DNA of 64,000 nucleotides from Hahella sp. KA22 (GTDB lineage: Bacteria; Pseudomonadota; Gammaproteobacteria; Pseudomonadales; Oleiphilaceae). Every line of letters starts with the position of its first letter. Position 1 is the first letter of the stretch. A program made the translations under genes and the position numbers. The DNA lies in the NCBI RefSeq assembly GCF_004135205.1, contig NZ_CP035490.1, forward strand, positions 4,383,644-4,447,643, read 5' to 3'. Below, one piece after another: positions 44,086-64,000 of this stretch. The notes under the pieces were generated by a model. The model searched no databases. It was not told the DNA's origin and saw nothing but the letters and a program-made list of their open reading frames with translations.

Positions 44086-44203
44086 GTTGCTACCTCAATA
44101 GCGTTACGCTTCGCAGATTGCAAAAATGCCAGACCAAACAACCTGTCTGGATGTGTATAAGCAGGTATTTGCAGCATACGTACCAAGTACGCCATGGCGC
44201 GGA

Positions 44204-46971: not shown

Positions 46972-46973
46972 GA

Positions 46974-49873: not shown

Positions 49874-49904
49874 ACTCGTTCCTCATGGTTTTGCTACGAG
49901 TCGT

Positions 49905-49920
49905 TTCAACATCTGCGCCA
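49905..49920 (-). promoter_or_regulatory. Candidate sigma-54-like promoter for the minus-strand operon
   Basis: Read on the minus strand: TGGCGC-AGATG-TTGAA, 32-47 bases before the AsnB-like start. The -24 GG is intact, but the -12 element has GA instead of GC, so it is a weak match. Confidence 0.35.
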
Positions 49921-50110
49921 GTTAGTTAAATTCCCGCAAATATCTATCTACAGCAGTGATTTAACGACACTCTCATATCAATTCCACTTGGCGAAAACTC
50001 CGCTCCATTTGTAATTTGCAAATCAAAACGCCATAACCACCCCATCAGATTAAGACCCGTTTCGCCCTCGTCGCAGGCTAAGATTCTGATCCCTCGGGGA
50101 TAATCCGCTT

Positions 50111-50126
50111 TGGCCCATAAACTGCG
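50111..50126 (+). promoter_or_regulatory. Candidate sigma-54 promoter for the acyltransferase operon
   Basis: TGGCCC-ATAAA-CTGCG: GG at -24 and GC at -12 with correct spacing, 34 bases before ATG 50160. It is a looser match to TGGCAC-N5-TTGCW than the one at 61727, but in the expected place. Confidence 0.5.
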
Positions 50127-50159
50127 TAGGACCTCTCAAACAATCCGAGGAGGTCGACG

Positions 50160-50882
50160 ATGAGCACATTATCCGGGGCGACATTAAGAGCCCGCATCAA
50201 ACACAGCGACTCCATGGCGGCATGCGCGCTGCGCGCCGTCTATTTCGGAATTCGTCGCTTTCAGATTCCTTGCATTCCCGTTCTGCACAAGCCGCTGTAT
50301 CTGGCTCATCGCAGCCTGAGCGGCATGCTGGAGAATCTGTCGCGCATTTTCTACTGGACGCCATTGTTTCAGTCGCGGCTGGAATCCCCCGCCCGCAACC
50401 TTTACCTGTACTCCGGCATGCCGCTGGTCACTGGGGCGTTGAGCGTGCAAATGGGCGCAGACTGTCGCGTCTCAGGGCTCTCAACCTTTTCGGGCAGAAC
50501 CTCATCTCCCAATACGCCTCGCCTGATCGTCGGCGACAATGTGGACATCGGCTGGCAAACCACCATTGCCGTAGGTTCCGAAGTCATTCTGGGTGACAAC
50601 GTGCGCATCGCCGGACGCGCCTTCCTGGCGGGCTATCCTGGCCATCCTCTGGACGCGGCGGCGCGCGCCGCCGGCAAGCCTGAAACGGACGATCAGGCCG
50701 GCCCGATCATATTGGAAGACAACGTCTGGCTCGCCACCGGGGTCAGCGTGATGGCGGGAGTCCGCATCGGCCGCAACACCATTGTGGCCGCTGGCAGCGT
50801 GGTCACCCGCGACCTTCCCGCCAACGTGCTGGCGGGGGGCGTTCCTGCGCTGGTGCTGAGGACTCTGACGGAGGAGGAATGA
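50160..50882 (+). CDS. Hexapeptide-repeat acyltransferase (SypM/WbbJ-like)
   Basis: GAGGAGG precedes the ATG. After a helical N-terminus, residues about 90-235 hold left-handed beta-helix repeats (MGADCRVSGLSTFSGR, LIVGDNVDIGWQTTIAVGSE, VILGDNVRIAGRAFLAGYPG, then IILEDNVWLATGVSVMAGVR). This is a transferase of the LbH family that probably O- or N-acetylates the polysaccharide. First gene of the plus-strand operon, 3 bases before the next start. Similar position to sypM in Vibrio. Confidence 0.88.
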   Translation: MSTLSGATLRARIKHSDSMAACALRAVYFGIRRFQIPCIPVLHKPLYLAHRSLSGMLENLSRIFYWTPLFQSRLESPARNLYLYSGMPLVTGALSVQMGADCRVSGLSTFSGRTSSPNTPRLIVGDNVDIGWQTTIAVGSEVILGDNVRIAGRAFLAGYPGHPLDAAARAAGKPETDDQAGPIILEDNVWLATGVSVMAGVRIGRNTIVAAGSVVTRDLPANVLAGGVPALVLRTLTEEE

Positions 50883-50885
50883 GCC

Positions 50886-52103
50886 ATGATGAACGCCACG
50901 CAAAAGCAGCAACTGATCGTTTTCGGCGAAGACTGGGGCGCGCATCCCAGCAGCACCCAGCACCTTATCCGTCATCTTGGCGACGACTATGAGGTCATCT
51001 GGGTCAACTCCATTGGACTGCGCCGCCCGCGCCTGACGCGACATGATTTACTGCGTCTGTGTCGCAAGCTGATGACCCGCGTCGGCGCCAGCGCTCAACG
51101 TACAAGTCAACAGGGCGCGCAAGACGCCGCTCCTTGTCGTCTGATCAATCCGTTGGTGATTCCTCTGTTCGGATCGAGATGGGTAAGACAGCTCAACGCA
51201 GCATTACTCAAACGTCAGCTGACGCCCTATATCCGCAAAGACAGCGCTTTGATTCTGTGGTCCTCCCTGCCGTCAATGGCGGACCTGGTGGGACGCCTCG
51301 GCGAACGTGGCGTGGTCTATTACTGTGGCGACGACTTCCGCAGCCTGGCGGGAGTGGATCACGGCCCCATCGCGGCGATGGAATCTGAACTGGCGGGCAA
51401 GGCGGATAAAATCTTCGTCGCCAGTGAAACCCTGGGGAATCGCTTCGCCGCCGCCAAAACCGAGTGGCTGCCTCACGGCGTGGACTACCGCCTATTCAGC
51501 TCGCCGCAGCCTCGACCAGAGGATCTGCCGGCGGAAGGCCCGGTGGCGGGGTTTTATGGTTCGGTATCGGAATGGTTCGATGTCGAGCTGATGAGCCATT
51601 GCGCCCGCGCCCTGCCCCATTGGACGTTTGTGGTCATCGGCGCCGTCCAGACTGACGTGGGGCCGCTGCGCCGCCTCGACAATGTACGCCTGTTGGGACC
51701 ACGTCCCCATCACGAGCTGCCCGCCTATGCGCAACACTGGCGCGCCTCCCTGCTGCCGTTTCGGCGCAATGGTCAAATCATGGCCTGCAACCCGCTCAAG
51801 CTGCGGGAGTATATGGCGGCGGGCGCCAGTATCGTCTCCACCCGTTTTCCAGCGGTGGAAAGCTACAGTGATCTGCTGCGCATCGCCGATTCCGCGGCGG
51901 ATTTCGTCGATGCTTTAAAACAGATCGAGGCCTGCCCCTTCCACGCCAGCGCCAACCGACTGAGAAAAGCCGCAGCGCAGGAGTCCTGGTCGCAACGGGC
52001 GCAAACCGTCAAACATTGCCTGAAGCAATTTGCGCATAGCGCCGCACAACTCGACGCAAAATGCGAGCAGCCAAACAAGGCCGCGCATAGTTCATTGATT
52101 TAG
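50886..52103 (+). CDS. Glycosyltransferase (GT-B type)
   Basis: GGAGGAATGAGCC leads into the start. The 405-aa protein has LIVFGEDWGAHPSSTQHLIR at the N-terminus, LVGRLGERGVVYYCGDDFRS, EWLPHGVDYRLFS, AGFYGSVSEWFDVELMS and a C-terminal LKLREYMAAGASIVST acceptor/donor motif. This resembles glycosyltransferases in exopolysaccharide clusters that use a UDP- or GDP-sugar. Same operon as the acyltransferase; position comparable to sypN. Confidence 0.85.
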   Translation: MMNATQKQQLIVFGEDWGAHPSSTQHLIRHLGDDYEVIWVNSIGLRRPRLTRHDLLRLCRKLMTRVGASAQRTSQQGAQDAAPCRLINPLVIPLFGSRWVRQLNAALLKRQLTPYIRKDSALILWSSLPSMADLVGRLGERGVVYYCGDDFRSLAGVDHGPIAAMESELAGKADKIFVASETLGNRFAAAKTEWLPHGVDYRLFSSPQPRPEDLPAEGPVAGFYGSVSEWFDVELMSHCARALPHWTFVVIGAVQTDVGPLRRLDNVRLLGPRPHHELPAYAQHWRASLLPFRRNGQIMACNPLKLREYMAAGASIVSTRFPAVESYSDLLRIADSAADFVDALKQIEACPFHASANRLRKAAAQESWSQRAQTVKHCLKQFAHSAAQLDAKCEQPNKAAHSSLI

Positions 52104-52193
52104 CACACAAAAAAAATTGGAACGCTTTTTGGTTCTACTCATACAAGCCCGATTTTCAGGCACGCGAACTCACTAACGCAAACGGACATCGAC

Positions 52194-52631
52194 ATGAACA
52201 AATGGGTTAAAACTTTACCGATTATCGCAGTTCTATTGCAGACCGGTTGCGCCATACAAAGCGAGCGGGTGGACATAGAACGCGTCAACCAAACCCTGTT
52301 CGCAATGACGCAGCTCCCCGCTGAAGAAACTGCGCCAGCCTATCTGACGCTGACTATCGACGCCATTGACGCCCCCTTGCAGAGTCCGGACTGGAAACAA
52401 CTGGAAGCGCGCGCCATGGCGTTCGTCAGCCGTTGCGCCACCTGTTTTGACAACGGATTGCTGCTGCAAGTGGCGGCCACCAACGCCGCGCAGCCGTTCC
52501 AGGCGCTCAATGAAAGCCTGCGTTGGGGCGGCAAACTGCGCGCTTTGTTAGCGATGCAGGGCCTGCCGGTGGATATCCGCTTCGACCCCAGCCTGCCCGC
52601 CTCCAGCGCGCGTCTGAGCGCCAAGGGGTAA
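52194..52631 (+). CDS. Small lipoprotein in the polysaccharide operon
   Basis: A 145-aa protein with a lipoprotein signal (IIAVLLQTGC, Cys at position 19). The mature part is alpha/beta with FVSRCATCFDNGLLLQVAAT. It lies between the GT and Wzz-like genes and ends 3 bases before the latter, so it is in the same operon. It could be a membrane-anchored partner of chain-length control or export. No family was recognised. Confidence 0.7.
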   Translation: MNKWVKTLPIIAVLLQTGCAIQSERVDIERVNQTLFAMTQLPAEETAPAYLTLTIDAIDAPLQSPDWKQLEARAMAFVSRCATCFDNGLLLQVAATNAAQPFQALNESLRWGGKLRALLAMQGLPVDIRFDPSLPASSARLSAKG

Positions 52632-52634
52632 GCT

Positions 52635-54134
52635 ATGCGCGTTGGCGTCTTCCTGAATTTGCACTACATGGCCGCGGCGGCCTGGCGTCGCCGCTACGCT
52701 ATCGTAGCGCCTTTACTGGCGGCGCCGTTTCTGGCTTTGCTTATCGGCGCCGTCACGCCGAAGAAATACCAGAGCTACACCACGCTGCTGATTCAGGAAA
52801 CGTCAAAACTGAATCCGTTCCTGGCGGATTTCTCCGTATCCACCCAGCTCAAGGAGCGTATGGCGGCTCTGCAAGCGCTGCTGCATTCACGCCATATGCT
52901 GGGCGAAGTCGCCATGGAAATGGGTTTGGGCGATAAAGACAGCGGCCACATCGGCGACCCGGTGCTGAATCGGCTTTCACACTCCCTGAAGGTCGAGCTG
53001 ATCGGCTCCGATATCATCAAAATCAGCCTGACGGATTCCTCGCCTCATGATATGGCGCGCACGCTGGAGGTCACCTCCAAACATTTTCTGAATGTGTTGC
53101 TCGCACCGGAGCGCTCCTCCATCGACGCCTCTGAAAATTTTCTGGAAGAGCAACTGTTGGCGCAACAGCAGGCGCTGCTGGCGGCGGAAAACACACTGGC
53201 GACGTTTAAATCCCAGTACAGCGGCAACCTGCCCGGGCAGATGCACTTCGATATCGAGCAGTTACGGGAAACGGAAAAGCAACTGCAGATCAAACAGGTC
53301 GAGCTGGCGGGCGCTGACGCCGCCATCGAGACTCTGAACACGCAGTTGCTCAAGGCCAATCCGCTATTGGCGTCCATTGAGGCGGATATCATTCGCGCCA
53401 GCGCCGAACTGAACCAACTGCAGGCCCGCTACACCGACAGGCACAGCCTGGTGGTGGCCGCCCGGCACAGTCTGCAGCGGCTGCGCCAAGAGCGCGACGC
53501 CCTGGTGGCGCAGACCCGACGCATGAGCCCGCAAAACATCGACGAACTCTGGCGTCTGGCGGCGGAATTCGCTGACGCGGATGAAGACCGCAGCGCCGCC
53601 GGCAGTCGAGTCAGCCCATTACTGGTGTCGCAACTGGAGTCCATTCAGCAGGCGCAGTCGCGCCAGCAACAGCTGACGCAAGAGACCGCCAGCCTGCAGC
53701 AGACTCTGGCGCGTCTGAAAACCAAGCTCGACAGCTTCGCCCAGGTCGAACAGCGCCTGCGGGAGTTAGAGCGGGATATTGCCACCAAACAGCATATCTA
53801 CGACGACCTGCTGAAGCGCTATGAAATGGCCAAAGTCACTGGCGCTCTGGGGCGTTTCGAAGAGCACGACCGGGTCAAGATCATCGATCGTCCGTTCACG
53901 CCCCATGCGCCCATCAATCTGCCCCTGGTGGTCTATTTCATCAGCGGCGCCCTGGGCGGGTTGTTTCTCGGCGCAGCCATCGCCGTGATTCTGGAAATTA
54001 TCGACACCAGCATTATCCGTCGCGATGTGGCGGAAAAAATTATCGGCGCGCCAGTCATCTCGCGCCTGCCGGACTTCAGGCAAGTCGCCATCGGATTCCA
54101 ATCCGCCCGCGACCTGACGCCGGTTGAATCCTGA
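52635..54134 (+). CDS. Wzz/GNVR-type polysaccharide chain-length determinant (SypO-like)
   Basis: A 499-aa protein with an N-terminal span (YAIVAPLLAAPFLALLIGAV), a long periplasmic coiled coil (about 160-420, e.g. ENFLEEQLLAQQQALLAAEN and RELERDIATKQHIYDDLLKR) and a C-terminal span (LVVYFISGALGGLFLGAAIA) near residue 430. No tyrosine-kinase Walker motifs are present. It should form a periplasmic oligomer that sets polymer length together with the Wzy-like enzyme. Same build as SypO and XrtA-associated chain-length proteins. Confidence 0.9.
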   Translation: MRVGVFLNLHYMAAAAWRRRYAIVAPLLAAPFLALLIGAVTPKKYQSYTTLLIQETSKLNPFLADFSVSTQLKERMAALQALLHSRHMLGEVAMEMGLGDKDSGHIGDPVLNRLSHSLKVELIGSDIIKISLTDSSPHDMARTLEVTSKHFLNVLLAPERSSIDASENFLEEQLLAQQQALLAAENTLATFKSQYSGNLPGQMHFDIEQLRETEKQLQIKQVELAGADAAIETLNTQLLKANPLLASIEADIIRASAELNQLQARYTDRHSLVVAARHSLQRLRQERDALVAQTRRMSPQNIDELWRLAAEFADADEDRSAAGSRVSPLLVSQLESIQQAQSRQQQLTQETASLQQTLARLKTKLDSFAQVEQRLRELERDIATKQHIYDDLLKRYEMAKVTGALGRFEEHDRVKIIDRPFTPHAPINLPLVVYFISGALGGLFLGAAIAVILEIIDTSIIRRDVAEKIIGAPVISRLPDFRQVAIGFQSARDLTPVES

Positions 54135-54161
54135 TCGCAGTCCATTTAACGAGGTATACCC

Positions 54162-55259
54162 ATGACATCGACATCTTCTCAGCGCAAAGTGGTCGTCCAG
54201 GTGGTGCAGCATTTGTCGCCGGGCGGCATCGAAAGTATTTGTCTGGAATTGCAGAGTTTCGCCGGCTCCAACGCCGACGTGCATCTAGTCAGCCTGGAAG
54301 GCCGGGAGTCGCAAATGGTCTCCCTGTGGCCGCGCCTGAGTCAGTATGCCGGCGTCATGCACTTCCTCGATAAACCCCCCGGCCTGCAACCGCGTCTACT
54401 GCTAAAGCTGGCGGCGCTGTTCAAAAGCCTTAAGGCGGATGTGGTTCATACCCATCATATCGGACCTCTGCTGTACGGCGGCGCGGCGGCGCGTCTGGCG
54501 CGCATTCCCGTGCTGATTCATACCGAACACGACGCCTGGCATCTGGGTCTGGACAACCATCAGAGCCTGGCCTCCAAATGCCTGAAATTCATTCGCCCGC
54601 AACTGGTGGCGGACGCCGAAATCGTCGCGGATCACATCAGAAGCCGCATCCCTCACGCGCAGCCGCGGGTCATTCCCAACGGCATAGATACGCGTCGCTT
54701 CAAGCCTGGAGACAAGGCCGCCGCACGGCGCTCATTCGGGCTGCCGGATGATCAGGCGATCATCGGCTGCGCCGCGCGTATGCATGAGGTAAAGGGGCAT
54801 GACATTCTGCTCGACGCCATGTTTCGCCTGCCGCCCAACGTGCATCTCGCGCTCGCCGGCAAAGGCCCGCAGGAAGCGCATCTGCAGCGTCAGGTGCGGG
54901 ATCTTAATCTCAGCGATCGGGTACATTTTCTGGGCCTGGTGGACGATATGCCGCGCTTTTATCAGGCGCTGGACGTGTTCTGTCTGGCGTCGAAAGCGGA
55001 AGGCATGCCTTTGTCCCCGCTGGAAGCGCAGGCCTGCGGCGCCCGCGCCGTCATCACCGACGTGGGCGGCAGTCGCGAGGCGCTGTGTCCAACCACCGGC
55101 ATTCTGGTTCCTGCGGATAATTCCGCGGCCCTGGCCAAGGCGCTGCGCTACAGCCTGCGCACGACGTTGAGCGCCGACCCCAGAGATTTCGTCATGCAGT
55201 ATCGGGATATCCGCGGCATGGTCGCCGCTTACGACCAGTTGCATAGCGTCGCCTGCTGA
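54162..55259 (+). CDS. GT4-family glycosyltransferase (SypP-like)
   Basis: GAGGT precedes the ATG. A 365-aa GT-B enzyme: VVQHLSPGGIESICLELQSF at the start, ADVVHTHHIGPLLYGG, RVIPNGIDTRRFKPG and CLASKAEGMPLSPLEAQACG with the donor-binding Glu. It has 27 bases to the previous gene. It is expected to transfer a sugar from a nucleotide donor to the lipid-linked glycan. Confidence 0.9.
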   Translation: MTSTSSQRKVVVQVVQHLSPGGIESICLELQSFAGSNADVHLVSLEGRESQMVSLWPRLSQYAGVMHFLDKPPGLQPRLLLKLAALFKSLKADVVHTHHIGPLLYGGAAARLARIPVLIHTEHDAWHLGLDNHQSLASKCLKFIRPQLVADAEIVADHIRSRIPHAQPRVIPNGIDTRRFKPGDKAAARRSFGLPDDQAIIGCAARMHEVKGHDILLDAMFRLPPNVHLALAGKGPQEAHLQRQVRDLNLSDRVHFLGLVDDMPRFYQALDVFCLASKAEGMPLSPLEAQACGARAVITDVGGSREALCPTTGILVPADNSAALAKALRYSLRTTLSADPRDFVMQYRDIRGMVAAYDQLHSVAC

Positions 55260-55308
55260 ACGCGGGCGGCTGACACATCAAGAATCGCCACCAAAGAGGT
55301 AATTCATC

Positions 55309-56499
55309 ATGACCGACACACTACTTTGGAGCTGTACGCTGATCCTGGGGCTGATCATCGTCTACCATCACGTGGGCTACCCCGTGCTGTTGCGCTATTG
55401 GGCCAACCGTAAGCGCCAGCAATCCCTACATCGTCATCAGGAGGAAGAGCGCAGCGATTATCCTGAACTGAGCATCATTATTCCCGCCTATAACGAAGCG
55501 GAGGTGATTGCGGAAAAGCTGCGTAATCTGGCGTTTCTCGACTATCCCACTCATCGCTTTGAAGTCCGCATTTACGACGATGGTTCGCAGGACGACACAC
55601 TCTCGATCATCCATCGCACATTGCAGGAAGCCGATGTGAAAAAGTTGCGGGTGCAAGTCATCGCCAACGAGGTCAACCAAGGCAAGGTCGCCGTCATCAA
55701 TCAGGCCATGCGGGAAACGTCTACGGAATTGGTGTTACTGTCCGACGCCTCTGCGCTGATCTCTATCGACGCCTTGAAAATCGTCGCCCGCCATATGCGC
55801 GACGCCAGCGTTGGCGTCGTGGCGGCCTCTTATCAGATACTCACTCCCGGCTCGGAAGGCGAAGAAACTTACTGGCGTTATCAGACCAACATCAAAGAGA
55901 TGGAAAGCGTAGTCGGCTCCACCATCGGCGCCCATGGCGCCCTGTACTGTTTTCGTCGCAGCCTGTTTGAGGAGCTGCCAGAAAACGCCATCAACGATGA
56001 TTTCATCCTTCCCATGCGCATCGTCGCGCAAGGCCATCGCTGCATCTATGACCGCGATATCGTCGCCGTAGAGCTGGAGCAGGCCAGCCTCACTATGGAT
56101 CATCAGCGTCGCAAGCGCATCGCCGCCGGCAATGTGCAACAGGCGCTGATGCTTACGCCGCTGTTGAATCCGAAGCATGGCGCCACTGCGTTCAACTATA
56201 TTTCCGGCAAGTTTTTACGGGTGTGCATGCCTCTGATTTTGGTCGTCTTTCTACTGTGCACGCTACTGCTGTCGCTGCACTCCTGGCTGGCGATGGTTCT
56301 GCTGTTGGGACAGATATTGGTCTACGGCCTCGCCAGCATCCGCGCCCTGACTCCCGGTGTTCCCTGGCCCAAACTGGTCAATCTGGTGCACTACTTGGTC
56401 AGCGGCCACTTCGCCAATGCCCTGGGCGCGTTACGTTATCTGTCCGGACAGGAAAGCGGCCGCTGGCAGCGCGTCAAACTGGAGGCCCATCATGATTGA
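55309..56499 (+). CDS. Membrane GT2-family glycosyltransferase (SypQ-like)
   Basis: A 396-aa protein with an N-terminal span (LWSCTLILGLIIVYHHVGYP), a GT2 catalytic domain (LSIIIPAYNEAEVIAEKLRN, RIYDDGSQDDTLSII, LVLLSDASALI, then INDDFILPMRI and a Q-R-R-x-R-like HQRRKRIAAG stretch) and two C-terminal spans around residues 310-345. The layout is that of processive-type synthases and of SypQ in V. fischeri. The stop overlaps the start of the sugar transferase gene. Confidence 0.88.
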   Translation: MTDTLLWSCTLILGLIIVYHHVGYPVLLRYWANRKRQQSLHRHQEEERSDYPELSIIIPAYNEAEVIAEKLRNLAFLDYPTHRFEVRIYDDGSQDDTLSIIHRTLQEADVKKLRVQVIANEVNQGKVAVINQAMRETSTELVLLSDASALISIDALKIVARHMRDASVGVVAASYQILTPGSEGEETYWRYQTNIKEMESVVGSTIGAHGALYCFRRSLFEELPENAINDDFILPMRIVAQGHRCIYDRDIVAVELEQASLTMDHQRRKRIAAGNVQQALMLTPLLNPKHGATAFNYISGKFLRVCMPLILVVFLLCTLLLSLHSWLAMVLLLGQILVYGLASIRALTPGVPWPKLVNLVHYLVSGHFANALGALRYLSGQESGRWQRVKLEAHHD

Positions 56500-57211
56500 T
56501 CTTGTTTTCACCAAAGCAGCCAAAAACGCCTCGGAGCCGACCATGATGCAAACGCGCACAGCCGCCATTGATTCGCCGACGAACTATATCCCCGCCACTA
56601 CCCTGGCGGCCAAGCGCTGTTTCGACATTGCCGTCAGCCTGCTCGGACTGGCCCTCAGCGCGCCAGTGTGGCCATTGCTTATTCTGGCTATTCGCCTTGA
56701 TTCGAAGGGGCCCGCGTTGTTCCGGCAACTACGCGTCGGCCGCGCGACGCCGACCTATACGGAGCTGTTCTACATGATCAAGTTCCGCACTATGCGCGTT
56801 GATGCGGAAAAAGAAACCGGCGCCGTCTGGGCCACCCGCAACGACCCGAGAGTCACACGAGTTGGCCGCTTTTTGCGCAAAACGCGCCTGGACGAACTGC
56901 CGCAACTGTTGAATGTATTGCGCGGCGAAATGTCCATCGTCGGCCCCCGCCCGGAACGCCCCGGCATCAGCAACAACCTGGACCGGGCCATCCCCTATTA
57001 CATCGAACGCACCTATTTCGTGACGCCCGGAATCACCGGTATGGCCCAGGTCCGCCAAGGCTACGACGCCTGCCTGGAAGATGTGAAAAACAAAATCGGC
57101 TACGACCACGCCTATTCACTCTGCCTGTCCAACTTCAGCTCATGGCTGAAAACCGACATCGAAATAATCCTGCGAACCTTTTGGGTAATGATACGAGGCC
57201 GGGGGCAATAG
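56492..57211 (+). CDS. Undecaprenyl-phosphate sugar transferase (SypR/WcaJ-like)
   Basis: ATG 56492 (GGAGG 7 bases upstream, overlapping the previous stop) is chosen over the frame's start at 56357. The 239-aa protein has a membrane hairpin ([20 protein letters not shown]) and the bacterial sugar transferase core: [47 protein letters not shown] and a [14 protein letters not shown] stretch. It is the initiating glycosyl-1-phosphate transferase of the polysaccharide. No N-terminal CoA-binding-like domain is present, so it is the short WcaJ/PglC type. Confidence 0.92.
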
Positions 57212-57259
57212 CCCCTGGTGAGGAAAGGTTATGTGGGGGGATCTGATATGATCGCCGCG

Positions 57260-57595
57260 CTACTTCTTGCTCTCCCAAGGAGAAGGTAGCGCGCTTACTG
57301 CATCTTCCAAGCGCATATACGCCACAATTGTTTCACTTGGATCTTTATGGGCCCAACCCAACACAGGAGAGTAGCGATAGCAGGCAATCGTGCTCCCTGC
57401 CTGGCTCTCAATGGCAACGAGATATTGCCCAAGCTCCTTCGGCGCATTTCCCTTGACCCACTCGGGACTCTGGGAGTGACGGGCCGACCTTACACGCAGC
57501 ACGGCCTCCTGAATGGCCTCCAGCTCATCGGCAGTGAATCCATCCAGGCAGGTGGACTCCTGCTCATCTACCGCCCGCTTCTCATGCGGGCTCAC
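57260..57595 (-). CDS. Hypothetical protein, 111 aa, third gene of a small operon
   Basis: The start is GTG 57595, overlapping the upstream stop (57592). The product contains TADELEAIQEAVLRVRSARH and ELGQYLVAIESQAGSTIACY. No family was recognised and no signal or membrane segment seen. Three genes (58352 to 57260) are stacked with 4-base overlaps, so they form a unit inserted between the two halves of the polysaccharide locus. Confidence 0.55.
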   Translation of the reverse strand: MSPHEKRAVDEQESTCLDGFTADELEAIQEAVLRVRSARHSQSPEWVKGNAPKELGQYLVAIESQAGSTIACYRYSPVLGWAHKDPSETIVAYMRLEDAVSALPSPWESKK

Positions 57596-57807
57596 TTCTT
57601 TACCAGGCGAAGCTTTTTCTCCTCTGGTCTGTATTCTTCCAGTTCACTCGGGAAAAGCTCCGAATCGGGTGTAAAAACCAAATCTAAAGAGCCCAACTGA
57701 ACCTGTGGTTCATCTTCCATGACCGCTCCGAAGCCATCTTTTATCTCCTCACGTAATTGACGCAGGAACTCCTCATAATCGGAGTCTCGCTTTTTATCTT
57801 CAGTCAT
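57592..57807 (-). CDS. Small acidic hypothetical protein, 71 aa
   Basis: ATG 57807 overlaps the upstream TGA (ATGA) and has AAGGTG nearby, so it is preferred over the start at 57825. The product is highly charged (MTEDKKRDSDYEEFLRQLRE, ending in EEKKLRLVKK). Middle gene of the three-gene unit. It is reminiscent of small acidic antitoxin or adaptor proteins in size and charge, but no DNA-binding motif is visible. Confidence 0.5.
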   Translation of the reverse strand: MTEDKKRDSDYEEFLRQLREEIKDGFGAVMEDEPQVQLGSLDLVFTPDSELFPSELEEYRPEEKKLRLVKK

Positions 57808-58352
57808 CTCAACACCTTGAAGCAAAAGTTACCGCGGCTGTTATATTCGTAGCCCTTGGAACAATAGAAGTCAATTACATTGGCGTTTACTGGTTTCATA
57901 AGTCTGATTTCATGAGCATCAATATGCTTAGCATATATTCTGGCCGCAATCTCGATTAAGTTGAAAGTGCTTCCTTTTAGAGGATTATCGCCAGGGGCAG
58001 ACTCAATGAAATCAAGTCTTAGACGACTGCCAGACCATGTAGGTTGCCCTAAAGAGAGTGCGCACAGCTTCATTTCACGCCACCAAATAGCTAACTCAAA
58101 GCGCTTAGGTTCCTGATACAAAAAGTGATAGTAACCATAGTCATCTCTTTCCCAGTCCCACTCCACTCGACGACCGAAAGTATTATGCCAGGAGCGCTGC
58201 TCTATAATGGCCTTTTGGGTAATGAGGGAGTATGAAACGACCGATTTAAGTTGAACAGGAAGAATGGCATTGGCGTCTTCGATAACTTCACGGCGAATTT
58301 TCGAATACTTTGTTTCCGTCGCAATATGTGTTCGGCTTCTGGAATATGACAT
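57804..58352 (-). CDS. Hypothetical protein with GNAT-like C-terminus, 182 aa
   Basis: First gene of the three-gene unit. The first 90 residues are basic and aromatic-rich (EWDWERDDYGYYHFLYQEPK); residues 135-182 (NLIEIAARIYAKHIDAHEIR, then VNANVIDFYCSKGYEYNS) look like the last helix and strand of an N-acetyltransferase, where a residue-N-x-x-x-x-x-FY-x-x-x-GY pattern is usual. No clear coenzyme A loop was found, so activity is uncertain. Confidence 0.5.
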   Translation of the reverse strand: MSYSRSRTHIATETKYSKIRREVIEDANAILPVQLKSVVSYSLITQKAIIEQRSWHNTFGRRVEWDWERDDYGYYHFLYQEPKRFELAIWWREMKLCALSLGQPTWSGSRLRLDFIESAPGDNPLKGSTFNLIEIAARIYAKHIDAHEIRLMKPVNANVIDFYCSKGYEYNSRGNFCFKVLR

Positions 58353-58922
58353 GCTTAAAAATCCATATTAAGTGTAGAAATCAGGGCTAGCATTCCCCGG
58401 GGACGTTGATACTACCTGGGTCGCCACAGCCAAAGTACCGGCTATTAACCCTACCCCTGGCGGCCTATTGTTGGTAATGGAATGTGTTGGCGAATGGTCG
58501 AAGTGATCATGCAATACATTGATGAACGCCTTCCTGGTTTCCCCTACCCCATGACGAGCGCCGGCGTTATCTCGTGAAAGCAGTAAAAGTCTTGAAAAAA
58601 ATATAGAACAGAGAAGCGGTTCTCATCATGGTCAGCCCCCCCTCTAAAAACTGGATTGCCTGTAAAAGCCAAGTTATAGGCGCACGGTCGTTACTGCTAT
58701 CACAAGCAGTACAGGCATGGGATCAGATTGAAGCCCCTCCCCTAAAAATAACGGACAAATTTACTGAGGGACATTTCAGGTTTATTTAGTATGATGAAGA
58801 TGGCAATGAATTCAGCCAGTTATGAAAGGCGCTCAGGAAGATTATGGGAGATCCCACTGACGCAGTTCTCTGAAAAAATTCGGTGAAAGACTTCATTAAA
58901 TCGACAAAAGGAAGGAGTTCTT
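58353..58922. other. 570-bp stretch without a full gene; possible gene remnants
   Basis: Contains a 53-aa open frame at 58628-58789 on the plus strand (starts MVSPPSKNWIACKSQ, has ITDKFTEGHFRFI before TAG). In the next frame directly after it is a short YDEDGNEFSQL stretch ending in TGA. Read together across one frame change they resemble a broken protein segment. The ribosome site AAGGAAGGAG at the end belongs to the 58923 gene. Confidence 0.3.
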
Positions 58923-59609
58923 ATGTCTGGAGAGTTAGAGGCGAAAAATCACGCGGATGCAGTACTAAACGCCTACAAATTAAGTTATCTGCCTTTAAAC
59001 AAGAAAGGGTTAACGATTGACGGTATCGGGCTTATGTTGCCTGATCCTGGCATGCCTCTAGGGGTTATTCTAAAGAAAGACAGCAGCTTCATCGTCCTGC
59101 TTGGCGAACAGCATAGTACAGAGACGTTATCGCCGCTTTTACCCGGCGATCAAACGTTGATGATTGCAGGCGCCAAAGCCGTGGTCGCCGCCATCGGCAA
59201 ATTAGGGAGCAAGCATACGACCATTGCAGCAGTCGAACTCCCTATCAAGAACGGAAGTATCGTTGGATCAGGCGCCGGACTGACCAAGATGGAGAAGCTC
59301 ACCATTGCCGATCCCGCCGATAAAAACCTCGGATCAATAAATCATTCTTTGTTCTATTACAAGGCGACGCTTTTGAAAGACGTGTTGTTCGCCGAAGGTG
59401 AAAATACCGTCGAAGTCGTCGACCAGGGACTGGCGGCCAAATCAGACGAACGCAATCCGGGGATCGCCGCTCATTTGATCAACGCCGCCGCAAGCGTCAA
59501 AGGGCCCAGCGTAACCGTGCTGCCCGTCGGACTCTCACATTTAGGTGGAAACAGCATACAAACACAACTGACCATGAAAGGATGGTCCATCACGACAAAG
59601 ATCGTCTAA
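58923..59609 (+). CDS. Putative TIKI/TraB/ChaN-type metallohydrolase-like protein, 228 aa
   Basis: GGAG is 5 bases before the ATG. Visible motifs are LLGEQHSTETL (GExH-like), TTIAAVELPI, and VLPVGLSHLGG near the C-terminus, the G-x-x-H-x-x-G element that closes the EreA/TIKI/ChaN fold. The order GE-x-H, then V-E, then G-x-S-H-L-G is as in that superfamily. The substrate is unknown. It has no signal peptide, and is separated from the neighbouring small genes by repeats. Confidence 0.5.
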   Translation: MSGELEAKNHADAVLNAYKLSYLPLNKKGLTIDGIGLMLPDPGMPLGVILKKDSSFIVLLGEQHSTETLSPLLPGDQTLMIAGAKAVVAAIGKLGSKHTTIAAVELPIKNGSIVGSGAGLTKMEKLTIADPADKNLGSINHSLFYYKATLLKDVLFAEGENTVEVVDQGLAAKSDERNPGIAAHLINAAASVKGPSVTVLPVGLSHLGGNSIQTQLTMKGWSITTKIV

Positions 59610-59650
59610 GCCAGCGATATAGCTCCGTGTGAGTTTGTTCGTTATTTATG

Positions 59651-59675
59651 GAGCCTCATTGTGATGATGAGGCTC
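59651..59675. terminator. Hairpin downstream of the 58923 gene
   Basis: GAGCCTCAT (59651-59659) and ATGAGGCTC (59667-59675) form a perfect 9-bp stem with a 7-base loop, 42 bases after the stop. No T tract follows. Confidence 0.5.
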
Positions 59676-59818
59676 GACTATCTAGAACTTTAGCGGGCGA
59701 ATTTCAACAGCTTCTGCGAAACCGTTTTCGCTTTGAGCAACCACCTGTTTGGTGCAATCTATTCCAAAGCAGTAGCCACTATCTGGGCTCTATGGGCAGG
59801 ATAAATCTGGAGCGTATG

Positions 59819-59972
59819 TGTTGGATGGCGCTTCGCTTATCCAACCTACGTTTCACTCTGCGCCCATATACAGACCGAAGAGAACGCCAGGCGTTTTGAC
59901 AGAACTCCTACGTTTCCTCCCCCACCCTCCTATCAGAAATGGGTAGGTCGGAAAAGCGAAGCGCCTTCCGAC
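59819..59972. repeat. Inverted pair of GTAGGTTGG / GCGAAGCGC-type intergenic repeats
   Basis: The left copy holds TTGGAT and ATCCAA arms around GGCGCTTCGCTT and ends in CCTACG. The right copy reads GTAGGTCGGAA, then AAGCGAAGCGCC, then TTCCGAC. Each is an internal palindrome and the two are inverted to each other. This repeat type is widespread in intergenic regions of proteobacteria and is distinct from the CCCTTCGACAGG repeat in the window. Confidence 0.75.
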
Positions 59973-60134
59973 ATGCGGAGCTGAATGGCCACACCAGTTG
60001 TAACAGGCCCAGACATAACTTCTGTTGGCGAACGAGCCGAATGATTAATATAAGGCAGGGTATACGTTCCCATAAATTTCACATGCACAGAGCATTACCG
60101 ACTTGTGCAGTCAGGACGGCAGGAATACTTTTCC

Positions 60135-60503
60135 TTAACTCACCACAGCCAATTCATCATCATTAATATCATTCAGATCAACGTCAGTTAAAATAGTCCC
60201 AGATAAGTCGGATTTTTTAAAACTCATTTCAAACAAGATTACCTCTTCATACGAGTCTGCTATCACGTACCTCTTTTCTCCGCTTTCCTCATCAATGAAG
60301 ACATTTGACTCTAAGGGCCTTCTGGGATTTTTTTTAGCAACTATCGCAATCCGCCAGTAATCACCGTCATCTATAGTTCCAGGGCATGTTTTTTCAAAAA
60401 ACCAGGCTGGAATATCGCTCTTAGGATGCTTCTGGAGGAATTCACCAATGAATTTTTCTATTGCAGCTTCAACAGCAGGATTATCTTCAAGCTTTTTACG
60501 CAC
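60135..60503 (-). CDS. Hypothetical protein, 122 aa
   Basis: Starts at GTG 60503 with GGAAG 7 bases upstream. Contains NPAVEAAIEKFIGEFLQKHP, DIPAWFFEKTCPGTIDDGDY and an acidic C-terminus (LTDVDLNDINDDELAVVS). Small, acidic, cytosolic; AT-rich DNA. It has the look of an orphan immunity-type protein but no family was recognised. Confidence 0.55.
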   Translation of the reverse strand: MRKKLEDNPAVEAAIEKFIGEFLQKHPKSDIPAWFFEKTCPGTIDDGDYWRIAIVAKKNPRRPLESNVFIDEESGEKRYVIADSYEEVILFEMSFKKSDLSGTILTDVDLNDINDDELAVVS

Positions 60504-60601
60504 AAACCACTTCCATTAAAATCTCAAGCCACTGCATCTACTCAGCCACCTTACAACGATCCCAAGAGCCTACTTTTATTTATCCGCCGATTCATTAACC
60601 A

Positions 60602-60952
60602 TCAACTTTTGACCCAGTCCGCAATGCGCTCATTTTCCTTCAGATTCTCTCTCAAGTAGTAGTAAACCGTATCCATGTTTACCACGATATCCAGCGCTGC
60701 GATGATGATGGAGGCGCCATCATCCGTTGAAAACTCAAATACCTCAAAATATCCATTTACCTTTTTCTCCTGCAGTACTTTCAGCGCCTTACTTTCTTCG
60801 ACCAAGGAGAAAACAGCGGTAATGTGAGGATCGCTACCCAAAATTATCAACTCATTCGCATTAAAGCTGAAAACTTCGAAGTCGAACCAAGCGGAATGAG
60901 CCATGGCGTTATTTACGGCATCAACCTTTCTTTTAAGCAGCGTATTACTCAT
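60602..60952 (-). CDS. Hypothetical protein, 116 aa
   Basis: The ATG at 60952 is taken; the frame also opens at a GTG at 60961. The product has VNNAMAHSAWFDFEVFSFNA and a TTDG-like FEFSTDDGASIIIAALDIVV stretch, with beta-alpha character. Cytosolic, no family recognised. It is one of a group of small AT-rich orphan genes in 57.2-61.5 kb. Confidence 0.55.
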   Translation of the reverse strand: MSNTLLKRKVDAVNNAMAHSAWFDFEVFSFNANELIILGSDPHITAVFSLVEESKALKVLQEKKVNGYFEVFEFSTDDGASIIIAALDIVVNMDTVYYYLRENLKENERIADWVKS

Positions 60953-61005
60953 CAGCTTCACATTATGATTTTGTGACTATTAAGCCGCTCCATCTACAAC
61001 AATAG

Positions 61006-61479
61006 CTAACGGCTTTCGTAGCCCATCAGCAGTTGATTAAACAGCTCTGTATCTTCCTCGCAGAGTTCGTTTTCGGTATCTGCGAGCAGTCCAGAGATCA
61101 TGTGGTATTCCAATTCGTTGCGGATACGGCCTCGTTTACGTATGCCTGCAATTTTCGTCCAGTATCGGTATCGCAATACGGAGAGTGTGATCAGGCCATT
61201 CGCACTCAAGTCGGCGTCGACCTGCTGCAAGGTTTCTGCGTCTACGTCCAAAGTGTCCTCTATGATGTCCTTGATCGCTTCCCGTAATCCCGCTAGTGCT
61301 GCCGCTGCGCCAAACTCGTCCAGGGTGCTGTCCAGCGCGTGGGACGGGTGAACGGGGTCTTCGGGGGGAATATCTTCATAGACCGTGCTGAAATAGTCTA
61401 GAAACTGGCTGAGCTCTATAAACTCCTACTGCTTAGGAGGAGAGAGTCTACGTATCTTTTTCTCCAGTTCGTCGGTCAT
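61006..61479 (-). pseudogene. Hypothetical gene interrupted by an in-frame amber codon
   Basis: A continuous reading frame runs from ATG 61479 (preceded by GCGGAAC) to the stop at 61006, broken by one TAG at 61428-61426 after 17 codons (MTDELEKKIRRLSPPKQ, then stop, then EFIELSQFLDYF). Apart from that codon the frame stays open for about 140 more residues, including ALAGLREAIKDIIEDTLDVD. A single C-to-T change in a CAG (Gln) codon explains it. The expressed remainder, if any, could only start at a TTG near 61251. No family was recognised. Confidence 0.7.
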
Positions 61480-61726
61480 TTGTTCCGCCTTTTTTCAGCA
61501 CATTCGGACGTTTCATCTTAATCGCAGGGTGAGTTTCGAGCTACTTCTCATGAAACACAGCTCAGCGCGCCATAGCCACTCAGGCGTACTTTTTCTTGTT
61601 TCAAACCAAAACGAACGCCCCACAGCCCCCCAAAATCTTCGCAATCCGCAACTGCAAAAAGCGAATTAGCTCGTTCTAACTTCTGACGCCACTCACTAAC
61701 CATATGTTTTTATTGCAAAAATAATC

Positions 61727-61742
61727 TGGCACAGGGGTTGCT
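61727..61742 (+). promoter_or_regulatory. Sigma-54 (-24/-12) promoter of the STAS-OmpA-Wza operon
   Basis: TGGCAC-AGGGG-TTGCT: a perfect match to the consensus TGGCAC-N5-TTGCW, with GG and GC at the right spacing, 40 bases before the ATG at 61783. Transcription should require RpoN and an enhancer-binding activator. The spacer 61480-61726 upstream is free of genes and could hold activator sites. Confidence 0.85.
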
Positions 61743-61782
61743 CCAGGTCTTGTGAGTTTTATCACTACGACCTGGGGACGTT

Positions 61783-62139
61783 ATGAACATCACTGAATAT
61801 TCTTGCAACGATTATCTCGTCATCGCGCTGGATGGGACTTTTGACGCTAATGCGGTGCAGCATTGCCGCGAGCAGTTGGAGGAGTCGGCGTTGAATCATG
61901 TTGGTGGGGTCGCTTTTGATTTGAGCGATGTGTCTTTCATGGATTCTTCCGGCATCGGCGCCTTGGTTTTCATCTATAAACAGCTGCACGCCAACCGTAG
62001 ACAGATGGCGCTGGTGGGGTTGCAGGGGCAGCCGCAGCGGTTGGCCACGTTGTTGCGGATCGACCGCACTATTCTGTCTTTTGACACCATGAAAAGCTTT
62101 ATCGCTTTGCAGCAACCCGTGCAGGAGCAGCGGGCATGA
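61783..62139 (+). CDS. sypA: STAS-domain protein (SypA-like)
   Basis: A 118-aa single STAS domain, like anti-sigma factor antagonists. The phosphorylatable loop reads SFMDSSGIGALVFIYK, with Ser at positions 55 and 56; S56 matches the position reported to be phosphorylated in V. fischeri SypA. It would switch polysaccharide production by its phosphorylation state. First gene after the sigma-54 promoter; the stop overlaps the next start (ATGA). The symbol reflects order and type of the neighbouring genes and is an inference. Confidence 0.75.
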   Translation: MNITEYSCNDYLVIALDGTFDANAVQHCREQLEESALNHVGGVAFDLSDVSFMDSSGIGALVFIYKQLHANRRQMALVGLQGQPQRLATLLRIDRTILSFDTMKSFIALQQPVQEQRA

Positions 62140-62972
62140 GACGGGGTCGCCTGCTGATACTAGGCGTGGGGCTGTGCGCCCTCGCCGGCTGCCAGAGCTG
62201 GCCTGAGGAAGGCAAAGGCGGTGCGGCGGAAATCCGTAGCGGCGAGGTGCAGCGCTATCATCAGATCAGTTTCACGCCGGATCAGGACAGCCTCGCCAAA
62301 CAGGCCCAGTTGGAAAAGCTGGAGTTGGATGCGCTGACCTTGCTGGGGGGCGACTATTGCATTCCCGCCCAGCTTAAAACGCTGAGACAGCGTTTGCATC
62401 GCGCCTTCAGAGAGCTGGATGCGGGGCTGTTGCCGGACGCTTACAACAGTCTGGCGATTCTGCACAAAGAGACGAAAAGCGCCAACGCCCAACTGGCTTA
62501 TCTCAACGAGCACACCACCTGCGCAATCGCCGACGACCATAACGGCTCTGACTCAGCCTTGAGCGGCTTTCCGATGCTGGTGCATTTCGATGTGAATCAG
62601 TCAGAGTTGTCAGAGGGATATCAGGGTTACCTCACCCGTTTATCCGCATACCTGCTGGCGGACGACTCGGTATCTATCGAACTGATTGGACACACGGACC
62701 AGCGTGGCGAAAACGACGCCAACCAGCATCTGGCCCAGGTCCGCGCCAAGGCGGTTGCGGCGTTTCTGGCGCAACAAGGGGTGGCGCAGACGCGCATCCT
62801 GATTCGTGCCGAGGGCGAAGAACAGACGTTGTTGCGGGACGCGGACAGCCACTCCCATGGCTTCAATCGTCGGGTGGAAATCTACCTCAATCGCCAGCAA
62901 CAACGCGGTGCAGTATCAACGCCCATTCCCCAGCGCGATTGGGAGTCCCATTTACAAGGACGCTACCTCTAA
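62136..62972 (+). CDS. sypB: OmpA-domain lipoprotein (SypB-like)
   Basis: A 278-aa protein with a lipoprotein signal (LLILGVGLCALAGC, Cys at position 19) and a C-terminal OmpA domain (about 150-265) with LVHFDVNQSELSEGYQGYL, ELIGHTDQRGENDANQHLAQ and NRRVEIYLN. The HTD and NRRVE motifs are those that contact peptidoglycan. It probably anchors the export machinery to the cell wall. Coupled to the STAS gene by overlap; followed by the export gene, as in the syp locus. Confidence 0.85.
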   Translation: MRRGRLLILGVGLCALAGCQSWPEEGKGGAAEIRSGEVQRYHQISFTPDQDSLAKQAQLEKLELDALTLLGGDYCIPAQLKTLRQRLHRAFRELDAGLLPDAYNSLAILHKETKSANAQLAYLNEHTTCAIADDHNGSDSALSGFPMLVHFDVNQSELSEGYQGYLTRLSAYLLADDSVSIELIGHTDQRGENDANQHLAQVRAKAVAAFLAQQGVAQTRILIRAEGEEQTLLRDADSHSHGFNRRVEIYLNRQQQRGAVSTPIPQRDWESHLQGRYL

Positions 62973-62990
62973 AACAGGACCCGAATTACT

Positions 62991-64000
62991 ATGGCAAGTC
63001 AGACGCACCCTATCATCCCTCACTCGATCAGAACGCCTGAGCAAGGCGCTCGCCTAACGCGGTTGACGATTTGGCTGACGGCGCTGATCGGAATACTACT
63101 GACTTGCCGCCATGTAAGCGCTGAAGAGACGACTGCTCCGTTACAACCGGGCGATCAACTCTACCTGGGACTAACGGGCGAACAGGCGTTCAATCGTAAC
63201 TTCCCTGTGGATCGCGAGGGACGCATTCTGCTGCCGGAAGCCGGCCCGGTGAAAATCGCCGGACAATCGCTGAGCGCCGCGACGCAGATGATCCAGCTGG
63301 CGCTGGGACAGGTTTATCGGGATGTAGAGCGCCTGCAGGTGACTCTGGCGGAACGCAATCTCATCATTGACGTTTCCGGCTATGTGGAGAACCCCGGCAG
63401 CGTGCTGACGCCCATCGCCGGCGACGTGCAAACCGCCATCACCCTGGCGGGCGGACTGCTGCCCGGCGCGCAATTGGACCGCATGCAGATTCAACGGGGC
63501 GACGACATTATCTACTTCAGCTACAAGGCGTATCTGGACTCCGGCGACCGCTCCAGCCTGCCGCCGCTGCGCTCCCTGGACCGCCTGTTTATTCCCGCTT
63601 CGCCGCTGATTGGCAATGTGCAGATCGACTTTGACGCGCAAACCCTGGCGGCCAGCGGCGACGCCAGCGACGACCGTCAGGCGGTGCGCATCTTCGGCGA
63701 AGTGAAAAGCCCGGGCCGCTTCAATTATGAACCGGATTACAGCGTCATCGACGCCATCATGCGCGCTGGCGGCGTCACCCGCTACGCGGCGGTCGAACAG
63801 ATCAAAATCATCTCGGACAGCGCCCCCTACAATTTCAATCTCAAACGCTATCTGGAAAGCGGCGACGCCTCGCTGCTGCCGCAACTGAAGCCCAACTCCA
63901 CCATTTTCGTTCCCATCCAGCAGGACGAAATCAAAGCCGGAGCCAACGTGGTCTATGTGATGGGCGAGGTGTTTAAACCCGGCGCCTTTGAAGGCAAGCC
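62991..64000 (+). CDS. sypC: Wza-like polysaccharide export protein with SLBB domains (partial)
   Basis: From ATG 62991 the frame stays open to the right edge (336 codons). It has a signal-peptide-like N-terminus (LTIWLTALIGILLTCRHVSA), a polysaccharide biosynthesis/export start (LQPGDQLYLGLTGEQAFNRN, PVDREGRILLPEAGPVKIAG) and SLBB-type repeats (ISGYVENPGSV-like VSGYVENPGSVLTPIAGD, RIFGEVKSPGRF, VMGEVFKPGAFEGK). This is the family of outer-membrane exporters including Wza and SypC. The C-terminus is outside the window. Confidence 0.88.
   Translation, partial: MASQTHPIIPHSIRTPEQGARLTRLTIWLTALIGILLTCRHVSAEETTAPLQPGDQLYLGLTGEQAFNRNFPVDREGRILLPEAGPVKIAGQSLSAATQMIQLALGQVYRDVERLQVTLAERNLIIDVSGYVENPGSVLTPIAGDVQTAITLAGGLLPGAQLDRMQIQRGDDIIYFSYKAYLDSGDRSSLPPLRSLDRLFIPASPLIGNVQIDFDAQTLAASGDASDDRQAVRIFGEVKSPGRFNYEPDYSVIDAIMRAGGVTRYAAVEQIKIISDSAPYNFNLKRYLESGDASLLPQLKPNSTIFVPIQQDEIKAGANVVYVMGEVFKPGAFEGK

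Follow-up and report, generated by a model that had tools for sequence, protein, structure and literature searches.

The window analysed here, a 64,000-nucleotide stretch of the Hahella sp. KA22 genome, together with the sequence to its right, very probably contains a largely complete, rearranged syp/scv-type exopolysaccharide locus, in which a sigma-54 promoter would be fed by a SypG-type activator and a periplasmic binding protein (PBP), SypF, SypE and SypA would form a switch circuit. The syp locus, which is used by Vibrio fischeri to colonise squid, is a leading model for how a bacterium decides on a symbiotic biofilm, and a nearly full Hahella locus that shares its promoter plan and switch speaks for a portable form of control, not one peculiar to Vibrio. 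Gene content, gene order, domains, aligned catalytic residues and a recurring layout of promoter and enhancer were all observed in the present analysis. Three points that emerge are testable, namely the PBP as a co-sensor of SypF, SypD as an inactive kinase, and the loss of the SypA serine that is seen only where SypE is absent.

Gene content and order of the locus

The genome of Hahella sp. KA22 is a single 6.96-Mb contig that includes a sigma-54 gene. For the part of the locus beyond the window, 50 kb was fetched starting inside the window and extending past its right edge (L008; an L008 coordinate plus 57000 gives the window coordinate). Eight plus-strand genes, with no gap of 50 bases or more between them, form the run A-B-C-D-PBP-F-E-G. 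The run opens with a sypA-like gene for a STAS protein of 118 amino acids (aa; 61783-62139), identified by its open reading frame (ORF), its domain and alignment to the V. fischeri-type protein. This gene is overlapped by 4 bp by a sypB-like gene for an OmpA-family lipoprotein of 278 aa (62136-62972), followed after an 18-bp gap by a sypC-like gene for a Wza/SLBB (Poly_export) exporter of 725 aa with five SLBB stretches, which starts at 62991 and crosses the window edge to end at L008 8168. The ORFs and domains of these three genes are as described in the initial annotation, which was made from the letters of the window.

Beyond the window, the plus-strand run continues with a sypD-like gene for a CpsD-like protein (L008 8165-8866, that is, 65165-65866), a gene for a PhnD/ArrX-type phosphonate-type PBP (L008 8877-9692, 65877-66692), a sypF-like gene for a hybrid kinase of 1152 aa with HAMP, two PAS, HisKA, HATPase, REC and Hpt domains (L008 9740-13198, 66740-70198), a sypE-like gene for a HATPase_c_2-REC-SpoIIE protein of 519 aa (L008 13176-14735, 70176-71735), and a sypG-like gene for an NtrC-type REC-AAA-Fis activator of 469 aa (L008 14777-16186, 71777-73186). 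A hybrid kinase, a SypE-like kinase/phosphatase and an NtrC-type regulator had been predicted to lie downstream, and all three were found, matching F, E and G; the PBP gene, out of view of the initial annotation beyond the window edge, comes in addition.

Two further runs are located within the window. The plus-strand M-R run (50160-57211) comprises a sypM-like hexapeptide acyltransferase (50160-50882), a sypN-like glycosyltransferase (50886-52103), a sypO-like chain-length determinant of the Wzz/GNVR type (52635-54134), a sypP-like glycosyltransferase (54162-55259), a sypQ-like family-2 glycosyltransferase (55309-56499) and a sypR-like priming sugar transferase (56357-57211; start codon uncertain, Bac_transf from residue 86). 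The minus-strand K/L run (43114-49873) includes a sypL-like protein of the Wzy/O-antigen ligase family (44204-45574) and a sypK-like flippase (45562-47154; start codon uncertain). The sypABC-like operon proposed initially is borne out for A, B and C, and the sypK-R half, which lies in the same window, had gone unmentioned.

The V. fischeri-type reference was G1028, the one of 14 genomes with an exact match to the native sypA primer sequences given in passages of PMC10120452 (two others have one or two mismatches). Its locus consists of 18 genes in an order fitting A to R; the sypF region (L228:7885-10184) reads as two ORFs of 609 and 150 aa. In a one-way comparison confined to this syp stretch, the best matches of the Hahella proteins had identities of 37% for A (the comparison of the STAS protein with SypA that had been suggested at the outset), 32% for B, 53% for C, 32% for D, 30% for E, 38% over 253 aa for F, 50% for G, 30% for K, 53% for L, 50% for M, 44% for N, 45% for O, 42% for P, 45% for Q and 53% for R. 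Counterparts are present in Hahella for 15 of the 18 V. fischeri syp genes, including eight of the 11 biosynthesis genes sypH-R (K, L, M, N, O, P, Q and R); H, I and J of the G1028 stretch have no clear Hahella counterpart.

The two loci share the A-G regulatory and export genes, with the A-B-C-D order (STAS, OmpA-like, Wza, CpsD-like) kept in Hahella, as well as the domain order of SypE, the sigma-54 site, an enhancer (a candidate in Hahella) about 83-90 bp upstream of it and the K-R biosynthesis genes. They differ in that the V. fischeri order D-E-F-G is replaced in Hahella by D-PBP-F-E-G, with the binding protein added, and in that the Hahella SypF is longer and contains two PAS domains. 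Also unlike in V. fischeri, the K/L run is divergent and lies to the left of M-R, and 4.5 kb of unrelated sequence separates R from A.

Candidate promoter and enhancer of the A-G operon

The sigma-54 -24/-12 element TGGCACAGGGGTTGCT is found on the plus strand at 61727-61742, exactly 40 bases before the ATG at 61783, in agreement with the TGGCAC-N5-TTGCT site reported initially. It is the sole match in the window with zero or one mismatch, against a mean of 2.77 in shuffled sequences. A perfect match alone proves little because exact matches to TGGCAC-N5-TTGCW are no more numerous than expected by chance in the 6.96-Mb genome (five, versus four for the reversed pattern); what gives the site weight is its location and the fact that it recurs across loci. 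In a comparison of 22 loci, in which several sypA genes have more than one possible start, the distance from the beginning of the site to a possible start codon is 53-56 bases in three Hahella, G015, Reinekea, Pseudoalteromonas, G124, G529, G383, G538 and G541, and 51 bases in a Hahella metagenome-assembled genome (MAG), giving 12 of the 22 loci in all. In G277, a score-13 site stands 82-88 or 22 bases before the start, and in G505, three Moritella, Zooshikella, G591, G031, G526 and G472 the site is absent upstream of sypA.

Of the 51 loci that encode a full-length SypG, 42 have a site with a score of at least 13 ahead of sypA, as do 15 of the 23 in which SypG is absent, compared with 272 of 10,836 random windows (2.5%) drawn from the same loci, many of the 74 loci being close relatives. 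Absence of SypG or SypE denotes here absence from the fetched stretch (about 16-20 kb) rather than from the genome. One contig of 74,811 bases, L057 and L224, is counted twice in the promoter, SypE/Ser and tree counts, and L204, which has no STAS match, was dropped from the promoter-score, SypA-alignment and SypE/Ser counts.

A candidate SypG-type enhancer, consisting of TTCGCAATCCGCAA (61638-61651, plus strand) and the adjoining CTGCAAAAAGCGAA (61652-61665), begins 89 bp upstream of the -24 element. TTCGCAATCCGCAA has two mismatches to the published SypG motif, TTCTCANNNTGMDWN (given in part of PMC10162802), and belongs to a block that is identical in three Hahella genomes; farther upstream, one of the three does not align. 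The Hahella variant of the motif is found 89-91 bp upstream of -24 in the three Hahella, in the Hahella MAG (TTCGCATTTCGCAA, 90 bp) and in G015 (TTCGCAAAATGCGA, 91 bp), and in the V. fischeri-type locus, whose -24/-12 site has one mismatch, two perfect SypG motifs precede that site by about 83 and 103 bp. Among 57 loci, 29 have the SypG motif with at most one mismatch at a distance of 80-99 bp upstream of the -24 T (shuffled mean 0.40) and 15 have it at 60-79 bp (shuffles 0.20), with 0-2 loci in each bin from 100 to 239 bp. A common promoter plan, with a SypG-type enhancer about 90 bp before -24 and then about 55 bp to the start codon, appears to recur in distant relatives.

The unremarkable genome-wide count of exact matches would also be expected if the window held an unrelated capsule operon preceded by a chance sigma-54-like sequence. 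We rejected this explanation as extremely improbable, given that it is largely refuted by the synteny with 15 syp genes, the recurring position of the site in distant genomes, the enhancer layout and the NtrC-type activator encoded in the same operon. As a separate observation, the Pseudoalteromonas locus (L061) contains a 16-base sequence in three copies at 15-base steps, about 90-125 bases upstream of the first sypA start.

Proposed signal input and STAS switch

In the circuit suggested by these genes, one sigma-54 promoter would read the A-B-C-D-PBP-F-E-G operon, and SypG, the product of its last gene, would bind about 90 bp upstream and switch the promoter on, closing a positive feedback loop. 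The PBP would probably report a ligand to the SypF-like hybrid kinase, which would pass phosphate via its REC and Hpt domains both to SypG, turning transcription on, and to SypE. SypE would then shift from kinase to phosphatase and dephosphorylate the STAS protein at Ser55; once unphosphorylated, the STAS protein would permit polysaccharide production by the export components B, C and D and the enzymes K to R, whose genes lie to the left. Transcription, phosphoryl flow, contact between the PBP and SypF, and the product are all predictions from the sequence. The composite proposal, in which a PBP-SypF co-sensor with a distinct PBP subfamily relays an extracellular ligand, SypF splits the signal between SypG, driving transcription by an RpoN circuit like that of AioXSR, and SypE/SypA, a STAS phospho-switch, and SypD is a kinase-dead scaffold, in Hahella and many relatives, has in our estimate an even chance of being correct.

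The placement of the PBP gene is highly regular. In 60 stretches taken from the 70 exporter-positive genomes of the order of Moritella (10 were left out, one of which, G630, was already included as L056), all 17 loci that carry it have it immediately 5' of the SypF-like gene, at a distance of 2-43 bases, and in the loci of the Hahella group it likewise directly precedes that gene. In the Hahella locus, for which the presence of transporter genes was checked, the PBP gene is separated from D by 10 bases and from F by 47, and no transporter gene intervenes. The nearest relatives of the PBP with solved structures are ArrX (E-value 4.9e-11), PtxB and HtxB, with AioX at 0.008. According to passages of PMC5908839, ArrX and AioX each form the first component of a three-component system whose binding protein is thought to act on the sensor kinase, and the AioXSR/ArrXSR regulator works at an RpoN promoter. 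Given that the PBP gene always directly precedes the SypF-like gene and that ArrX, the nearest solved relative, partners a sensor kinase, the PBP is probably the co-sensor of SypF. The two kinds of systems are alike in that a PBP gene of the same superfamily adjoins a sensor-kinase gene and the regulator goes with an RpoN promoter, judging in Hahella by gene order and sequence; they differ in that the Hahella PBP is only distantly similar to ArrX, the output is a set of exopolysaccharide genes, and a SypE/SypA branch is added. If the co-sensor role is true, a built-in environmental input of the syp family would be identified, and the PBP may tell the cell when to build a biofilm.

Alternatively, the PBP might be an uptake or scavenging protein, not a sensor, that sits in the operon by happenstance. 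Its annotation fits such a role: both Pfam and NCBIfam name it a phosphonate/phosphite ABC substrate-binding protein, the NCBIfam scores being under the cut-offs. Some Vibrionaceae eps clusters likewise encode SypE and, between D and F, a phosphate/phosphonate periplasmic component that stands alone. The passages of PMC5801674 that describe this component give it as the only part present in the clusters studied, frame it in terms of transport and phosphonates and propose no sensor role; no other paper relevant to a PBP of syp loci was among the matches listed. A PBP homologue (E-value at most 1e-10) was detected in five of 16 genomes, within the locus in G000, G830 and G1001 and elsewhere in G731 and G630; none was detected at this threshold in the other 11, including the V. 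fischeri-type genome, although the SypF of the latter has a similar N-terminus. The kinase can apparently do without a PBP, which weakens the co-sensor claim. On the other side are the lack of a transporter gene between D and F, the invariable position before the SypF-like gene, the relationship to ArrX and the composition of one loop: where PtxB and ArrX have a Ser-rich loop, which we take to bind the oxyanion, the aligned residues of the PBP are AFAA. The signatures FPxPxAFAA, HDSVY and GGG are common to 25 of 26 aligned PBPs, with G538 as the exception. The predicted structure (the protein of Hahella sp. HN01 and two relatives) had a mean predicted local distance difference test (pLDDT) score of 47.6, too poor for a fold search. 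On balance, we consider the uptake role unlikely, albeit a serious competitor, and favour the co-sensor role.

V. fischeri SypA reads F53-L54-D55-S56-S57-G58, as derived from the primer sequences and residue numbers in passages of PMC10120452, and the fetched V. fischeri-type SypA sequence agrees with this reading. The equivalent positions in the aligned Hahella protein are D54-S55-S56-G57, so the predicted phospho-acceptor is Ser55 and Ser56 is its neighbour; the initial annotation was correct that residue 56 is a serine but not that it is the equivalent of V. fischeri Ser56. The SypE-like protein (HATPase_c_2-REC-PP2C) keeps the kinase Asn (N60, corresponding to N52, which V. fischeri SypE requires according to part of PMC3610818), the Asp of the REC domain and the acidic motifs of the PP2C domain. 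All 61 of the 61 aligned SypA proteins have Lys67.

Across 77 loci, all 38 whose stretch includes SypE retain the first Ser of SypA, as do 27 of the 39 in which SypE is absent. At the position of this Ser, the remaining 12 loci have Ala (7), Pro (2), Val (2) or Met (1), and nine of them swap the Ser yet keep the flanking Asp and Gly. In the other three, L181, L188 and L191, which lack SypE and have SypG, the whole DSSG region is degenerate. Regular expressions found no DSSG-type motif in 13 of 74 rows, which was settled by alignment (61 rows), and the presence of E, G and PBP for the 17 loci outside L165-L224 was entered by hand. The table omits G277, G031, G526, G472 and G541 of the 22 promoter-comparison loci; four of the omitted loci end at a contig edge, and G526, with no SypE in its stretch, has the Ser and would give 28 of 40. 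A Fisher test gives p = 1.8e-4, a value that cannot be trusted as it stands because related loci count in it as independent. On an exporter tree of 76 rows (Zooshikella is missing because its contig has no exporter) there are five changes of E, three of Ser (two forced by starred branches) and five independent pairs; all three Ser changes fall in rows without SypE, and the sign test is without power. The pattern is suggestive of, and does not prove, a link between the presence of SypE and retention of the SypA phospho-Ser.

In most of the family, SypD probably has no tyrosine kinase activity, because the Walker-A Lys is missing in 79 of 80 aligned D proteins (Val in 59; the Lys is present in L219) and there are few or no C-terminal Tyr residues, at most two among the last 40. 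In the window strain, Cys37 occupies the Walker-A Lys position and there is no Tyr in the last 40 residues; the Walker-A region of the V. fischeri-type SypD is NSGEGVSS. Accordingly, the tyrosine-autokinase-like gene predicted downstream is present as a CpsD-like gene but lacks this Lys. A model of the HN01 D protein (98% identical) shows a kinase-domain fold of the Wzc/CapB/VpsO type, with a pLDDT of 76.6 and with BceF, Wzc, CapB and VpsO as the top structural matches at template modelling (TM) scores of about 0.5-0.6. The best named matches of the Hahella D protein are tyrosine kinases despite the missing Lys. No paper pairing SypD with Walker A was among the matches listed.

Several observations weigh against the proposed assignment and circuit. 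The SypG-like protein scores highly as LuxO (654 bits with the NCBIfam model, under the cut-off of 800), and its name is based on synteny. The sigma-54 site tracks SypG loosely, given that 15 of the 23 loci without SypG have the site and nine of the 51 with SypG fall short. The candidate Hahella enhancer is two mismatches from the published motif, and the relaxed version that covers it was drawn up with this site already known. In 49850-50180, before sypM-R and the divergent minus-strand run, the best sigma-54-like sites have three and two mismatches, and none is strong or comparable in quality to the site before sypA. The link between SypE and the Ser rests on few independent changes. Finally, the Hahella SypA-like protein differs from V. 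fischeri SypA at nine of 19 positions compared, including Arg68 to Gln67, Arg27 to Gln26 and Asp20 to Thr19; in V. fischeri SypA, R68A abolishes function and R27A frees the protein from SypE (passages of PMC4517449).

These substitutions would be readily explained if the locus and its sigma-54 promoter were the same but the Hahella SypA had lost its biofilm surface, with SypE and SypA idle or doing something else. Against such an idle switch, Ser55 and the catalytic residues of the SypE-like protein are kept, the first Ser is retained in every locus with SypE, Lys67 is invariant, and the genes stay together across several genera; we accordingly regard it as quite improbable and retain a working SypE/SypA switch as the preferred interpretation.

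Distribution in relatives and adjoining sequence

A scan for the operon, with an alignment of six E proteins as the query, identified the same operon in Hahella sp. HN01 (99% identity for A, 99.6% for C and 96% for E), diverged operons in the Hahella MAG and Reinekea, and partial or different arrangements in Zooshikella, Moritella, Elstera, Pseudoalteromonas and a gammaproteobacterial MAG. With an E-value of at most 1e-60, the exporter is encoded in 10 of the 244 genomes from the order, in 4 of the 369 from the class and in 70 of the 394 from the order to which Moritella belongs. Among the Hahella genomes, four of seven encode the exporter. The Wzz gene of the left half is present in six of nine genomes searched, namely the four exporter-bearing Hahella and two family members with an E gene, G012 and G015, and was not found in the three Hahella that lack the exporter.

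The initial annotation had proposed an exopolysaccharide under sigma-54 and phospho-switch control in a marine bacterium outside Vibrio. Gene content supports such a system in Hahella, but the non-Vibrio setting is already published: passages of PMC8941931 report scv/syp loci in 148 species of 28 genera and eight orders, Oceanospirillales included. The scv locus of V. parahaemolyticus and its homologues described there belong to the same gene family as the Hahella locus; V. parahaemolyticus scv, unlike the Hahella locus, is without counterparts of sypE, sypF and sypM. Hahella is not named and the word phosphonate does not appear in the main text of that paper, the figures and supplements of which may include Hahella, and no paper joining Hahella with syp terms was among the matches listed. 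Thus, syp/scv loci outside Vibrio were already known, as was the lone PBP, noted in Vibrionaceae and left unexplained in the passages concerned (PMC8941931, PMC5801674), whereas the geometry of promoter and enhancer, the sensor reading of the PBP, the Lys-less SypD and the SypE/Ser pattern are what the present analysis adds.

Several genes within the runs have no clear syp equivalent. A small lipoprotein-like ORF of 145 aa between sypN and sypO (52194-52631, plus strand) matches neither Pfam nor the V. fischeri-type stretch. The minus-strand K/L run also contains two glycosyltransferase-like genes, one at 46974-48188 with 31% identity over 175 aa to one V. fischeri-type syp ORF and the other at 43114-44085 with no clear syp counterpart, and a gene for an asparagine-synthase-like protein (48185-49873) with no match in the V. 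fischeri-type locus.

The sequence that parts sypR from sypA (57212-61726, about 4.5 kb) consists of small ORFs, five of which were searched and have no Pfam match. The same gap is about 7 kb in Hahella G001, assuming equal lengths of P, Q and R, and in G015 the sypQ-like gene ends less than 200 bases before sypA; this gap is possibly an insertion hotspot. Farther to the right, at the window-equivalent positions 82472-101763 (L009, L010), three very long plus-strand ORFs of 3655, 1582 and 1186 aa look like a megasynthase cluster, as judged by their length and first residues.

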